Source: Sporichthya polymorpha DSM 43042 (GTDB lineage: Bacteria; Actinomycetota; Actinomycetes; Sporichthyales; Sporichthyaceae). From it: a stretch of DNA of 64,000 bases. The position numbers and the translations under genes were made by a program. The notes below the pieces were generated by a model that saw only the letters and a list, made by a program, of their open reading frames with translations, made no database searches and was not told where the DNA came from. Location: contig NZ_KB913029.1 of assembly GCF_000384115.1 (NCBI RefSeq), forward strand, positions 902,907 to 966,906, in the 5' to 3' direction. This document shows positions 4,245 through 45,884 of this stretch, piece after piece; the first letter of the stretch is position 1, and every line of letters begins with the position of its first letter.

Positions 4245-4865
4245 GTGACGACAACAAGCCCGACCCGGGCGGACGCCCAGCGCGTCCGGGTGGTGTCGAC
4301 CGCGGCCGAGATCTTCAGCCGTCAGGGCTTCCGCGCCACCTCCATGAACGAGATCGCCGCGGCCGTCGGGCTCTCGAAGCCCACGCTGTACCACTACTTC
4401 CGCAGCAAGGAGGAGCTACTCGTCCGGATCTACTCCGAGGTCCTGGCCGAGAGCGTCGAGGAGGCCCGCGCCCTCGTCGCCGCCGCCCCTTCTCCCCTGG
4501 AGGCAATCCGCGCGCTGATCACCGCGCGCGTCGTCTACACCTGCGAGAAACAGCAGCTGCTCAAGGTCTGCTTCGAGGAGGAGCACGAGCTCCCCGCCGA
4601 CCTCGCCGACGAACTGCTGGCCCGGCGCAAGGAGTTCGAGGACCTGTTCCTCGACGCCGTCACCGCTCACCTCGCTGCCCACCGCGCGACCCACCCGGAC
4701 GCGCCGGCCGGCCCCCTGGAGGAGATGGCGCCGCGCGTGTACGTGAACACCTGCCTGGGCGCGATCAACTGGTGCTACAAGTGGTACCGCCCGTCCGGCC
4801 CGGCCACGCCCGCCGAACTCGGCCGCCAGATCGCGGCGACCCTCACGGCCCCCCTGGAGCGTTGA
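4245..4865 (+). CDS. TetR/AcrR family transcriptional regulator
   Basis: A 206-residue TetR regulator. The N-terminal helix-turn-helix (about residues 20-60) contains MNEIAAAVGLSKPTLYHYF followed by RSKEELL, the standard TetR DNA-binding signature. The remaining alpha-helical part is a ligand-binding domain resembling the FadR/PsrA-like acyl-CoA responders. I chose the GTG at 4245 because the helix-turn-helix begins soon after it and the operator lies just before it; the open frame extends upstream only as antisense of the dehydrogenase. It is expected to repress the divergent acyl-CoA catabolic operon until a CoA thioester binds. The ligand is not identifiable. Confidence 0.88.
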   Translation: MTTTSPTRADAQRVRVVSTAAEIFSRQGFRATSMNEIAAAVGLSKPTLYHYFRSKEELLVRIYSEVLAESVEEARALVAAAPSPLEAIRALITARVVYTCEKQQLLKVCFEEEHELPADLADELLARRKEFEDLFLDAVTAHLAAHRATHPDAPAGPLEEMAPRVYVNTCLGAINWCYKWYRPSGPATPAELGRQIAATLTAPLER

Positions 4866-4916
4866 CAAAGGGTGACACCCCTTGTCGACGGTTTACAAAG
4901 GGTGTCACCCCTTGTC
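4864..4916. terminator. Bidirectional hairpin built from two copies of a GGGTGWCACCC palindrome
   Basis: Two near-identical 26-base units begin at 4865 and 4895, each containing AAAGGGTG[A/T]CACCCCTT. Together they form a hairpin with 22-base arms (4864-4885 and 4895-4916, two mismatches) and a 9-base loop. It follows the TetR stop directly and precedes the stop of the convergent membrane protein gene, so it probably terminates both. There is no U-tract. The same core recurs at 32777-32826 and 45958-45974. Confidence 0.65.
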
Positions 4917-23498: not shown

Positions 23499-23504
23499 CG
23501 CACT

Positions 23505-23548
23505 GGAGATGTCATCTCCACCGCATCGGGGGTGGAGATGACATCTCC
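23505..23548. terminator. Hairpin from two GGAGATGWCATCTCC palindromes
   Basis: Two copies of GGAGATG[T/A]CATCTCC form a perfect 18-bp stem (23505-23522 with 23531-23548) and an 8-base loop. It starts 7 bases after the racemase stop and is probably its terminator. The same 15-base palindrome occurs inside fliO at 50801-50815. Confidence 0.65.
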
Positions 23549-23575
23549 TGGCTCGGGCCGGGTAGTGCTGCGCGC

Positions 23576-27413: not shown

Positions 27414-27463
27414 CGGACGTCCGACGATGTGGTTGCAATAGCAGCCACATCCTCGGACGTCCG
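27414..27463. terminator. Long hairpin, copy 2 of 2
   Basis: Arms of 23 bases (27414-27436 and 27441-27463) pair with two mismatches around an AATA loop. Each arm also starts with the palindrome CGGACGTCCG. The hairpin begins at the base next to the molybdoenzyme stop codon on the minus strand, so it is probably its terminator. It shares about 30 bases with the hairpin at 26743-26792. Confidence 0.65.
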
Positions 27464-32776: not shown

Positions 32777-32826
32777 AAGAAAGGGTGACACCCCTTACTG
32801 CGGAGTAGGGGGTGTCACCCTTTCTT
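32777..32826. terminator. Bidirectional hairpin with GGGTGWCACCC cores
   Basis: Arms of 23 bases (32777-32799 and 32804-32826, one mismatch) with a GCGG loop lie between the convergent DUF202 and rhodanese-fusion genes. Read on either strand it ends in TTTCTT, a short T-run. Its AAAGGGTG[A/T]CACCC core is shared with 4864-4916 and 45958-45974. Confidence 0.75.
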
Positions 32827-42204: not shown

Positions 42205-42908
42205 GCATCGCCGACGTGCAGGCCCGCATGGCGGCCATCACCGCGCAGTTCGTCTCGCCGCTGCAGACCGTCGCGTCGGCGTCGGCGTCGGCGTCGACGT
42301 CGACGGCGTCGGGCTCGACCGCGACCACCTTTGCCGCCGCGCTCGCCGAGGCGACCAACTCGACCGGGGCAACCGGCGCGGGTTCGGGGGCGGGTTCCAA
42401 GGCGACCGGCACGGCCGCCGAGCTCATCGCCGACGCGAAGCGCTACCTCGGCGTCCCCTACGTCTGGGGCGGCACCAACCCCGCCAAGGGACTGGACTGC
42501 TCCGGCCTGACCCAGCTGGTCTACGGCCACGTCGGCATCGACCTGCCCCGCGTCAGCTACCAGCAGGCGAAGGAGGGCACCGCCGTGAACGGGCTCGCCA
42601 ATGCCAAGCCCGGCGACCTGCTCGCCTTCGACTCCCCCGTCGACCACGTGGCGATCTACCTCGGCGACAACAAGATGATCCACGCCCCCCGGCCCGGAAA
42701 GGTCGTCGAGATCTCCGACGTCTACGAGACCCCGACCCACATCCGCCGCCTGCTCCCCGAGACCGCTCCGGTCAGCAACGCCCTGCCGGGTGGGCTGCCG
42801 AGCGGAGTGGCGAACGCCCTGGCGACCGCGCTGCCGGGCGGGACGGCGAACTCACTGCTGGCCCAGTACCCGGCCCTGGCCGCCGCGCTCGGAGGGAGTG
42901 CGTCATGA
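42201..42908 (+). CDS. NlpC/P60-family peptidoglycan hydrolase in flagellar operon
   Basis: A 235-residue protein. After an Ala/Ser/Thr-rich linker (about residues 25-70), an NlpC/P60 domain (about 72-180) shows the catalytic Cys in GLDCSGLTQLVY, His in VDHVAIYLG and a third polar residue in MIHAPRPG. It should cut the peptide stems of peptidoglycan. There is no signal peptide, so it is probably exported by the flagellar apparatus; its N-terminus (SIADVQARMAAITAQF) could carry that signal. It occupies the functional place of the rod muramidase FlgJ. The C-terminus is hydrophobic and Ala-rich. Confidence 0.85.
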   Translation: MSIADVQARMAAITAQFVSPLQTVASASASASTSTASGSTATTFAAALAEATNSTGATGAGSGAGSKATGTAAELIADAKRYLGVPYVWGGTNPAKGLDCSGLTQLVYGHVGIDLPRVSYQQAKEGTAVNGLANAKPGDLLAFDSPVDHVAIYLGDNKMIHAPRPGKVVEISDVYETPTHIRRLLPETAPVSNALPGGLPSGVANALATALPGGTANSLLAQYPALAAALGGSAS

Positions 42909-44143
42909 CGACCCCCACGATCGGTTCGCTCCCGGTGCCCGTCCCCGCGACGGCCCCGACCGGCCGCGCGGCCACGGACTCGGGGTCGGACGCGGACGCC
43001 GGTACCGGCTCCGGCTCGGGCGAGCAGTTCGCGGGGATGGTCGCCGACCTCGTCGCGGCTCTCCTCGGCACCCCGGCCCCCGCGGCGTCCGACCTCTCCG
43101 GCGAGGCGCGCCCATCCGTCGCCTCGGATGGGCGCGGCACGCCGGAGAAGTCGGCCCTCGCGGCGGGGGTCGTCGCCCCGTCCCCGCTCCCGGGCGCGGC
43201 CCCCACCCCGGGCGGCGCGGACCCGGCCTCGGCAGCGACTCCGGCGACCGGCTCTGTCGCGGCGGCGTGCGCGACACCGGCCGCCGCCACGGGCACCGCC
43301 GATTCCGCCGCGACGGGCCCGGCCGGTCTCGACTTCTCCGGCGAGGCGCGCCCATCGACCGCCTCGGATGGGCGCGGCACGCAGGAGAAGACGGCCACCC
43401 CGGGCGGGGCCGACGTCTCGGAGGTCTCGGAGGCCCCGGCTCCCGCGCCCAAGTCGCCGGACAAGGCCGCCCCGTTCGAGGGACGCGCCGACCCCGCTGG
43501 CAGCTCATCCGGCCAGGACCCCCACAACCCCAACTTCTCCGGCGCGGGGCGGCCATCCCCCGCCGGGGAAGGGCGCGGCGCGCCGGAGAAGTCGGACGGG
43601 GTCACCCCGGCCGGCGCGGCTCCGGGCGCTGCGCCCACGTCGGCGACCTCGACCGTGGGTCCCGCGGCCGCGGCGTCGTCCGCGACTCCCGCGACTCCGA
43701 CGCCCGCACCCCTGGCGGCGCAGCTCGCCGCCCCGATCACCGCGGTGCACCAGGGCGGGGCGGAGGGGACGCACGTCCTGTCCGTCGAGGTCACGCCCGA
43801 GGAGCTCGGCCCGGTCCGGGTGGAGCTCGAACTCCGGGACGGGACGGTCGAGCTCCGGCTCGCCGGCCAGAGCGAGGCCGCCCGCGACGCCCTGCGCGCG
43901 GCCCTGCCCGACCTGCGGCGCGCGCTCGAAGCGGCCGGCATCGGCACGGGCACCTTCTCGCTCGGCGGGGACGGCGGCTCGCCGCAGCCCGGCCCGGGCG
44001 ACCCCCAGAACGGGCACGCCCGTCCCGCCTGGGCGGGCGGGGACGGGCGTGTCCCGCACGGCACCACGCAGAACACAAACGCCGGAGCACCCACCGGCGC
44101 CGGCACCCCGGCACCCGCCGGCTCGCTCGACCTGCAGCTGTAG
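42905..44143 (+). CDS. fliK: Hook-length control protein FliK
   Basis: A 412-residue FliK. The first 260 residues are disordered and Ala/Pro/Gly-rich. The C-terminal substrate-switch domain (about residues 270-355) contains HVLSVEVTPEELGPVRVELE and LRAALPDLRRALEAAGI, the FliK_C signature. Three copies of a 52-base palindromic element encode FSGEARPS..SDGRG.PEK-like peptides at about residues 65-83, 145-163 and 212-230, all in the disordered part. A fourth, weaker one lies near residue 375. FliK measures hook length and triggers the specificity switch; added linker length may affect that ruler (inference). Confidence 0.85.
   Translation: MTTPTIGSLPVPVPATAPTGRAATDSGSDADAGTGSGSGEQFAGMVADLVAALLGTPAPAASDLSGEARPSVASDGRGTPEKSALAAGVVAPSPLPGAAPTPGGADPASAATPATGSVAAACATPAAATGTADSAATGPAGLDFSGEARPSTASDGRGTQEKTATPGGADVSEVSEAPAPAPKSPDKAAPFEGRADPAGSSSGQDPHNPNFSGAGRPSPAGEGRGAPEKSDGVTPAGAAPGAAPTSATSTVGPAAAASSATPATPTPAPLAAQLAAPITAVHQGGAEGTHVLSVEVTPEELGPVRVELELRDGTVELRLAGQSEAARDALRAALPDLRRALEAAGIGTGTFSLGGDGGSPQPGPGDPQNGHARPAWAGGDGRVPHGTTQNTNAGAPTGAGTPAPAGSLDLQL
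43096..43147. repeat. In-frame palindromic element in fliK, copy 1
   Basis: A 52-base hairpin: CTCCGGCG, AGG, CGCGCCCATCCG, a 6-base loop, then the exact complements CGGATGGGCGCG and CGCCGGAG separated by GCA. The coding strand gives SGEARPS.ASDGRGTPEK. The opposite strand in the matching frame gives SGVPRPSEATDGRASPE. Confidence 0.85.
43336..43387. repeat. In-frame palindromic element in fliK, copy 2
   Basis: Same 52-base length and the same reading phase as copy 1 (start offset from the fliK ATG is 2 modulo 3 in both). The outer arms carry two changes. The encoded peptide is FSGEARPSTASDGRGTQEK; the opposite strand gives FSCVPRPSEAVDGRASPEK. Confidence 0.85.
43537..43588. repeat. In-frame palindromic element in fliK, copy 3
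   Basis: Again 52 bases and the same phase, but more diverged in the inner arms. The outer stem extends to ACTTCTCCGGCGCG. The encoded peptide is FSGAGRPSPAGEGRGAPEK; the opposite strand gives FSGAPRPSPAGDGRPAPEK. Confidence 0.8.
44011..44056. repeat. Imperfect palindrome near the fliK 3' end, possible diverged copy
   Basis: CGGGCACGCCCGTCCCGCC pairs with the following GGCGGGGACGGGCGTG-containing stretch except for single-base bulges. The peptide GHARPAWAGGDGRVPHG loosely follows the GEARPS..SDGRGTP pattern of copies 1-3. Homology to them is uncertain. Confidence 0.4.
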
Positions 44144-44155
44144 TCAGGAGAAACG

Positions 44156-44590
44156 TTGACCGTCCTACCCCCCACCCCGATCTCGTCGCTCTTCGAGCCG
44201 AAGCCGGCGGCGACCAGCACGCCGGGCAACACGCTCGGCAAGGACGCGTTCCTCAAGCTGCTCGTCGCGCAGCTGAAGTACCAGGACCCGACCGCGCCGA
44301 CCGACTCGGCGCAGTTCATGGCGCAGACCGCGCAGTTCACGCAGGTCGAGAAGCTGGAGGAGATCGCCGCGGCGGTCACCCAGTCGCTCACCGCGCAGAG
44401 CGTGTTCGGTGTGAGCGCGATGGTCGGACGGACCGTCAGTTGGCTCAATGCCGACGGGACCGAACTCTCGGGCGTCGTTCACGCCGCCTCGTTCACCGCC
44501 GCCGGCCCCTACCTGACGGTGGCGGACGGCACGCAGGTCGCCATGGGCGACATCACCTCGGTGCGGGCGACTCCCGCGAACCCCCAGTAA
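44156..44590 (+). CDS. flgD: Flagellar hook capping/assembly protein FlgD
   Basis: A 144-residue FlgD. The N-terminal signature LGKDAFLKLLVAQLKYQDP (about residues 27-45) and QFMAQTAQFTQVEKL are diagnostic. The C-terminal beta part is short, so this is a minimal FlgD. The start is a TTG with AGGAG 6 bases upstream, 13 bases after the fliK stop. FlgD caps the growing hook. Confidence 0.9.
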   Translation: MTVLPPTPISSLFEPKPAATSTPGNTLGKDAFLKLLVAQLKYQDPTAPTDSAQFMAQTAQFTQVEKLEEIAAAVTQSLTAQSVFGVSAMVGRTVSWLNADGTELSGVVHAASFTAAGPYLTVADGTQVAMGDITSVRATPANPQ

Positions 44591-44603: not shown

Positions 44604-45791
44604 ATGCTTCGCTCGCTCTTCGCCGGCATCTCCGGTCTGCGCTCGCACCAGACGATGATGGACGTCACCGGCAACAACATCGCCAACGTGAACACGACGG
44701 GCTTCAAGTCGAGCACGACGGTCTTCCAGGACACGCTCTCGCAGCTGCTCAAGGGCGCGGGTGCGCCGGTCGGCGGCAACGGCGGCACGAACCCGGCGCA
44801 GGTCGGCCTGGGCACGCGCCTGGCCGCGATCACGACGAACTTCGCGCAGGGCTCGGCGCAGTCCACCGGCCGCTCGACGGACCTGATGATCCAGGGCGAC
44901 GGCTTCTTCGTCGTCCGCAACGGCGGCGAGAACCTCTACACCCGCGCGGGTGCGTTCTCCTTCGACACCGACGGCCGCCTGACCACGCCCGAGGGCGCAG
45001 TCGTGCAGGGCTGGTCCGCGAACAACGGGCTGATCGACACCAACGCCCCGGTCGGCGACATCCAGCTGCCGGTCGGCGCGGTCCTGCCGCCGGTCGCGAC
45101 GAGCACCGCGACGCTGGCCGGCAACCTGCCGTCCGACGCGGCCCTCGGCACCGTCGTCCGCACGTCGATCAAGATCTACGACGCGGCCGGCACCCCGACC
45201 GACATGGACGTCACCGCGACGCTCGCCGCGGGCGGCGTCTGGAACCTGACGTCCAGCGTCGGCACGCTCTCCCCCGCGACGCTGTCGTTCACCGGCGCCG
45301 GCGCGACCCCGTCCGCCACGTCGCTCACCTTCACCGCCACCGGCGGGCAGGTCGTCACGGTCGACACCAGCACGATCACCGGCTTCGCCGGGCAGAACAG
45401 CCTCGCCGCGACCGGCCAGAACGGCTCGGCGATGGGCACCCTGCAGGCGTTCACGATGTCGCCGGACGGGACGCTCATCGGCGTCTTCTCCAACGGCCTC
45501 AAGAGCCCGCTGGCGCAGGTCGCGCTCGCGAACTTCAACAACCCGCCGGGGCTGGAGAAGGTCGGCGGGTCGATGTACCGCACGACGGTCAACTCGGGCA
45601 CCGAGCAACTCGGCACCGCCGGGACCGCCGGCCGCGGCCTGCTCTCCTCCGGCCAGCTCGAGATGAGCAACGTCGACCTCGCGGCCGAGTTCACCAACCT
45701 GATCGTCGCCCAGCGCGGCTTCCAGGCGAACTCCCGCGTCATCACCACCAGCGACCAGATCCTCGAGGACCTGGTCAACCTCAAGCGCTGA
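44604..45791 (+). CDS. flgE: Flagellar hook protein FlgE
   Basis: A 395-residue hook protein. The N-terminal rod/hook motif is MMDVTGNNIANVNTTGFKSS (about residues 17-36). A FlgE middle domain contains GFFVVRNGGENLYTRAG-like sequence. The C-terminus FTNLIVAQRGFQANSRVITT is the conserved flagellar basal-body helix. AGGAG precedes the ATG. It closes the first flagellar transcription unit; complex palindromes follow. No flgF or flgG is seen beside it. Confidence 0.94.
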   Translation: MLRSLFAGISGLRSHQTMMDVTGNNIANVNTTGFKSSTTVFQDTLSQLLKGAGAPVGGNGGTNPAQVGLGTRLAAITTNFAQGSAQSTGRSTDLMIQGDGFFVVRNGGENLYTRAGAFSFDTDGRLTTPEGAVVQGWSANNGLIDTNAPVGDIQLPVGAVLPPVATSTATLAGNLPSDAALGTVVRTSIKIYDAAGTPTDMDVTATLAAGGVWNLTSSVGTLSPATLSFTGAGATPSATSLTFTATGGQVVTVDTSTITGFAGQNSLAATGQNGSAMGTLQAFTMSPDGTLIGVFSNGLKSPLAQVALANFNNPPGLEKVGGSMYRTTVNSGTEQLGTAGTAGRGLLSSGQLEMSNVDLAAEFTNLIVAQRGFQANSRVITTSDQILEDLVNLKR

Positions 45792-45796
45792 TCCCG

Positions 45797-45871
45797 CGGG
45801 ATGACGTCCCGCAGGGGGCCCGCGTCAGCCCGGAGGAGGGCTGACAGGCACCGCTGCGGGACGTCATCCCG
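45797..45871. repeat. Nested cruciform-like palindrome after flgE
   Basis: CGGGATGACGTCCCGCAG (45797-45814) pairs perfectly over 18 bases with 45854-45871. The 39 bases between contain a second hairpin, GTCAGCCC...GGGCTGAC (45824-45831 and 45838-45845). It begins 5 bases after the flgE stop and probably ends that transcript. Confidence 0.65.
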
Positions 45872-45884
45872 GAGCAGCAGGGCG

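Follow-up and report, generated by a model that had tools for sequence, protein, structure and literature searches.

The fliK locus

The window, which is the whole 64,000-nucleotide stretch analysed here (G000:C1:902907-966906), comes from a 5.50-Mb single-contig genome designated G000. The flagellar hook-length control gene fliK lies on the plus strand at window positions 42905..44143 and encodes a protein of 412 aa, with an NlpC/P60 gene on one side and flgD/flgE on the other. FlgE of G000 shares approximately 60-67% identity with FlgE of a Pseudonocardiales MAG, Motilibacter, and Cellulomonas. The C-terminal Flg_hook domain of FliK (Pfam PF02120, residues 287-359, E=1.1e-15), encoded at 43763..43981 on the plus strand, is free of repeated elements, and three palindromes were found within the low-complexity N-terminal half of the protein. 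Antisense to fliK, an open frame of 558 codons occupies window positions 42772-44448 on the minus strand; it is most likely artefactual, owing to the high G+C content.

The three palindromes occupy 43090..43153 (copy 1), 43330..43393 (copy 2), and 43531..43594 (copy 3), all on the plus strand, and are read in FliK as SDLSGEARPSVASDGRGTPEKS, LDFSGEARPSTASDGRGTQEKT, and PNFSGAGRPSPAGEGRGAPEKS, respectively. Each is a 64-nt imperfect palindrome comprising a 27-bp stem and a 10-nt loop, and each was matched in the nhmmer/covariance model family searches. Of the 27 possible pairs, 24, 23, and 22 are formed in copies 1, 2, and 3, while the mean pairing of 64-mers across fliK is 11/27, and the three copies are the gene's three best palindrome centres. 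RNA folding gave z values of -8.4, -4.9, and -4.5, and for each copy none of 200 shuffles was as stable. The number of chance matches to the core palindrome pattern expected in the window is 0.

An earlier sequence-only reading had described three 52-nt palindromes starting at 43096, 43336, and 43537; the places were correct, and the length represents the inner 52 of the 64 nt. Its layout of an 8-bp stem, 3-nt internal loop, 12-bp stem, and 6-nt loop is exact in copy 1, whereas the folds of copies 2 and 3 deviate from it somewhat. The single codon phase that it assigned to all three copies was borne out within the fliK reading frame. It had also noted nearly the same peptide on the opposite strand, which is real but automatic for any palindrome, since its two strands read alike at equal offsets.

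A dispersed family found in one actinomycete family

Searching G000 with copy 1 at the DNA level gave 75 strand matches, many with E < 1e-5; most had a partner match on the opposite strand, as a palindrome predicts. A covariance model built from 28 copies gave 82 strand matches, corresponding to 41 copies, and the fliK copies matched the family model with E values of about 1e-13 to 1e-16. When strand matches were halved in the same way, around 16 copies were counted in G001, 14 in G002, 4 in G003, and 67 in G004. The search of the genome and its relatives that the sequence-only reading had suggested thus located the family in G000 and four relatives.

In a class-wide search of 297 genomes, performed with stricter filters that also drop G003, the matches were confined to genomes of the same family, bar one weak match, and no convincing copy was found in the other approximately 290 class genomes sampled. 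The weak match, in G287, was not a palindrome and was dismissed as a chance match in coding-like sequence. Matches to the element in 80 flagellar loci of other actinomycetes were at chance level at most. An exact-pattern scan of genome contigs, which possibly left out genomes close to that of the window, returned 0 matches, and Rfam returned nothing but sub-threshold chance matches to microRNAs. Integron attC sites were also considered and rejected by inspection, as the copies have no conserved RYYYAAC/GTTRRRY boxes and their terminal positions vary and covary.

Position relative to genes

Genes were called with a simple codon model, and in-gene copies were then checked by reading every frame through each copy. 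Most copies are intergenic, mainly 3' of stop codons, and many start less than 20 nt from the stop. By the codon-model calls, the copies outside the window are intergenic, save for one in a CoA-transferase gene that was found by frame reading. Entry into genes, which the sequence-only reading had proposed, is therefore the exception, with 4 of the 41 copies in G000 located within genes. Convergent gene pairs flank 13 of 25 intergenic regions with an element and 20 of 172 regions without (Fisher p=1e-5, on the simple codon-model calls). The 15 nt 3' of the hairpin have a mean T fraction of 0.088, compared with 0.141 overall, so that there is no U-tract. At several sites filled in G000, G001, a more distant relative than G002, carries an unrelated long hairpin instead, so hairpins are generally at home there, and some element sites adjoin another strong hairpin.

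Conservation of the fold

The length and pairing of the element are conserved between genera, while the sequence of the stem changes. In an alignment of 35 copies, 22 of the 27 pairs have changes on both sides, and 146 double-changed cells were counted, where shuffles gave 59 and slid controls 13-43. The near-constant parts of the element are its ends, CTTCT/AGAAG, and the loop-closing TC/GA, and the outermost pair is C-G in 33 of 35 sequences. Two subfamilies were recognized in G004, CACTTCTGCTGCCTGTCCCACCTATC-N10-GATAGG... and CATCTTCTGCGTGTGTCCGCGCCCTTC-N10-GAAGGG..., and G003 holds further subfamilies; the units of both genomes are all approximately 64 nt long, with 27-nt arms and a 10-nt loop. 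Since pairing is kept while the stem sequence changes, and the ends and loop closure are nearly constant, the alignments suggest that selection or copying depends on the hairpin.

In-frame copies in other proteins

In-frame copies in further unrelated genes, as the sequence-only reading had anticipated, were found in dusB and in a CoA-transferase III gene. In G004, which belongs to a sister genus, the tRNA-dihydrouridine synthase gene dusB contains an in-frame copy that reads RSLCRDAATDS-IFCGCPRPSEGSEGRGHAQKMG-VSGGSAAPGLYVNEM and is missing from 13 orthologues and from E. coli DusB (6ei9). The linker at this position has 34 aa in G004 versus 13 aa of unrelated sequence in the sister species G003, the G004 gene being 63 nt longer there, and twelve further aligned orthologues have little or no linker. 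Relative to E. coli DusB 6ei9, the G004 protein has about 33 more residues at the element position. In the AlphaFold2 model of G004 DusB, residues 47-71, located between helix 31-47 and strand 76-78, are the sole internal segment with pLDDT <50.

In G000 and G002, a copy lies in a variable linker of a protein that we take to be CoA-transferase III-like, an identity based on sequence motifs, and it is read in a frame other than that of fliK. The same linker in G003 and G004 contains a different palindrome, GTTGCGTC...GACGCAAC in G004. In G003, the C-terminal tail of an RlmN-like protein is formed by a copy. Rare in-frame capture is therefore real and recurrent.

The sequence-only reading had proposed that the element can enter genes in either orientation without breaking the frame. 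The indifference to orientation is a property of any palindrome, and because 64 is not divisible by three, a whole unit shifts the frame on insertion; the copies that survive in genes must have altered the length by a net 3n. Most frames through a copy can be read, 84% of those through the copies being stop-free, versus about 72% for random sequence of equal base composition.

Gain, loss, and arrays

The genome G002 is approximately 92% identical to G000 and syntenic with it. Each of its 14 family matches, those in fliK included, has a family counterpart at the corresponding G000 site, and none is a G002-only copy; at several sites filled in G000, by contrast, G002 retains the flanks but lacks the element. 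The cleanest difference is at 2992351-2992414 of G000, where exactly 64 bp are present or absent with no target duplication, and further presence/absence sites with preserved flanks are located at 2293393, 2067361, 3661804, 4374195, and 579353. Some of the differences are losses, with fragments of a copy retained by G002 at 5446676 and possibly also at 2293393. The site at 3725734 is apparently common to G000 and G001. For the copies at 1805331 and 2284513 and some array members, the interspecies alignment is ambiguous.

Arrays with a period near 75 nt occur at 579, 614, 2067, 2284, 4019, 4643, and 4645 kb, and the tandem copy number differs between G000 and G002 (4 vs 1) at both 614589 and 4018999. 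Copies turn over at these sites; no transposition event was observed, and active transposition is our inference. Together with the 41 copies in G000, these comparisons support the claim that the palindromes form a dispersed family, polymorphic for presence/absence and amplified locally. At L179:7368-8740, two elements of G000 enclose a gene of approximately 1.2 kb that is absent from G002 (L192), which has a fragment of one element beside another hairpin at this place.

Age of the fliK copies

The fliK orthologue of G002 contains all three copies at matching positions, with the frame preserved and every gap a whole number of codons. Decay has cost its copies 1 and 2 part of their pairing, while copy 3 is identical. 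Special conservation of copy 3, which lies in approximately 100 identical bases, was considered and rejected because such runs are common (70 runs of at least 100 identical bases in 148 kb of syntenic alignment between G000 and G002). As the fliK copies are present in both genomes, the insertions predate the G000/G002 split, and they now evolve as coding DNA. A match to FlgE was not found in G001, G003, or G004, and there is hence no empty fliK site for comparison. The sequence-only reading had set its mobile element against the case in which all fliK orthologues share the three copies with ordinary divergence and the element occurs nowhere else; the element proved to be widespread elsewhere, but in the sole comparable orthologue all three copies are indeed present and have diverged to an ordinary degree.

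Comparison with known systems

The element shares with REP sequences a small, dispersed, mainly extragenic palindrome that lies 3' of genes, forms pairs and clusters, and has a variable stem sequence. REPs lie behind or between convergent or co-directional genes, with some inside ORFs, and have stems of 5-13 bp in units of 20-40 bp (PMC3733652). The element, with 64 nt, a 27-bp stem, and a 10-nt loop, exceeds these size limits. It also lacks the GTAG tag, its ends being C(A/G/C)(A/T)C, with CGTC at 14 of 70 ends. The Y1/RAYT transposase (PF01797) was detected in 0 of the 5 genomes (G000-G004), while control genomes were matched; REPs with CGTC are likewise without an associated transposase (PMC3733652). 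Actinobacteria are not among the phyla named for REPs in that paper.

Rickettsial palindromic elements (RPEs) are approximately 150 bp long, and nearly half of them lie within ORFs (PMC10969869); they are also described in PMC3733652. Like RPEs, which are in-frame palindromes in unrelated protein genes that add a short translated segment, the element occurs in unrelated genes, with dusB as the clear case. Compared by description, it differs from RPEs both in size (64 nt versus approximately 100-150 bp) and in its intragenic share of 4/41. MITEs such as ERIC, Correia, and RUP are short, non-autonomous, palindromic, and dispersed, and the element resembles them in these respects. No target-site duplication was found at the single clean site, 2992351-2992414, the other sites being too diverged for this comparison. 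A survey that covered Y1_Tnp identified no cognate insertion sequence, and no other enzyme was linked to the element. Intrinsic terminators are similar in being G+C-rich hairpins behind genes, but the element lacks a U-tract and forms one family of sequence and length instead of gene-specific hairpins. A full-text literature search found no actinobacterial equivalent, which is not proof of absence. In the best reading, the family is REP-like and occasionally RPE-like, but departs from REPs in stem length, tag, and RAYT transposase, and from RPEs in size and intragenic share.

Origin and spread

Three accounts of the fliK palindromes that dispense with repeated mobile insertion were weighed. 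If they were ordinary low-complexity FliK coding sequence that pairs by chance, with no mobile origin, the repetitive and poorly conserved linkers of FliK and the drift of copies 1 and 2 in G002 would be expected; the strength of the matches to the family model, the 38 further full-length copies, nearly all extragenic, and folding well beyond that of shuffles make this hardly credible, and the genome-wide family refutes it. Segmental duplication inside fliK from one in-frame copy, which would require a single insertion only, would account for the common codon phase and for the 91% identity between copies 1 and 2. We nevertheless consider it improbable. Random phase-matched fliK segments resemble one another at least as much as the 60-nt flanks of the copies do, the identity of copy 3 to copies 1 and 2 (83%) does not exceed its identity to intergenic copies (84%), and the shared phase has a chance probability of 1 in 9 and may reflect frame selection. 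Since copies 1 and 2 are so alike within flanks of background similarity and copy 3 resembles them no more than it does intergenic copies, the sequence comparison favours separate copies of the element.

A further account holds that the units are mainly RNA elements of the 3' end, either terminators or mRNA-protecting structures, which were spread by selection, the fliK copies being stray and non-mobile. The placement of copies behind stop codons, many within 20 nt, the enrichment between convergent genes, the pairing preserved through double changes across genera, and the quite different long hairpins at several G001 sites all agree with it. It fits poorly with the missing U-tract (T 0.088 vs 0.141) and with the sites that already have another strong hairpin alongside, and terminators need neither exact ends, a fixed length of 64 nt, and arrays, nor in-frame copies in dusB and the CoA-transferase gene. 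On balance, we regard this account as unlikely.

The three fliK palindromes are probably captured copies of a REP-like, non-autonomous 64-nt palindrome family of this actinomycete family, and we hold this reading with good confidence. The element would be a non-autonomous hairpin copied by an enzyme other than RAYT, whose identity we propose with low confidence: a recombination enzyme, encoded either by the host or by another element, may recognize the hairpin, with its CTTCT/AGAAG ends and TC/GA closure, and copy the unit, probably as single-stranded DNA. Insertions behind genes would be tolerated, where the RNA hairpin may protect the 3' end of the mRNA or help termination, while insertions in genes would survive only with a net length change of 3n and in a flexible linker. 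Translation of a captured copy would then add approximately 21 disordered residues, and its sequence would drift like any other coding DNA, as fliK of G002 illustrates.

More tentatively, several unrelated palindrome families (the 64-nt family and one of approximately 50 nt, GTTGCGTC...GACGCAAC) may have been spread by a non-RAYT enzyme and repeatedly entered the same permissive linkers in-frame, the CoA-transferase linker with its different palindromes in two genera being an example. If this broader proposal, which we rate as possible, were true, mobile hairpins would regularly supply new protein segments, as an RPE-type system in an actinomycete lineage. In-gene palindromes are known mainly from Rickettsia, from a few other REP-rich bacteria, and from the REP repeats of other phyla. 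In a high-GC actinomycete, a structure-conserved family with differences between sister species at preserved flanks and in-frame copies in the housekeeping enzyme DusB would extend coding palindromes to another phylum, and the element would offer a tractable case for studying the spread of hairpins where the usual transposase is missing and the tolerance of proteins for them.

Other hairpin families

A second dispersed hairpin family of approximately 48 nt, AGAAAGGGTGACACCCCTTACTGCGCAGTAAGGGGTGTCACCCTTTCT, was observed at window positions 4864-4916 and 32778-32825, with further copies at L160:17083, L164:6001, L166:1441 and 12192, L171:17906, and L174:2958; every copy was called intergenic in the 409 kb of G000 examined. 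The palindromes of a third family measure 48-50 nt, have ends of the type GTTGCGTC...GACGCAAC or AACGTC...GACGTT, and occur at window positions 27415-27462 and at L165:6594, L171:5598, L172:12323, L173:3757 and 4848, and L272:1477 (G004). This family supplies the in-frame palindrome of the CoA-transferase linker in G003 and G004, and its copy at L173:4848 forms the C-terminal tail of a protein in G000. Hairpins of AGATGTCATCTCCA units are located at window positions 23503-23550 and at L167:16518-16564, with tandem repeats at L167. Finally, 3' of flgE, window positions 45785-45883 contain an inverted repeat with the motif CTGCGGGACGTCATCCCG, which is also found at L160:8213-8265, and a similar motif near 579 kb is tandemly duplicated in G002.
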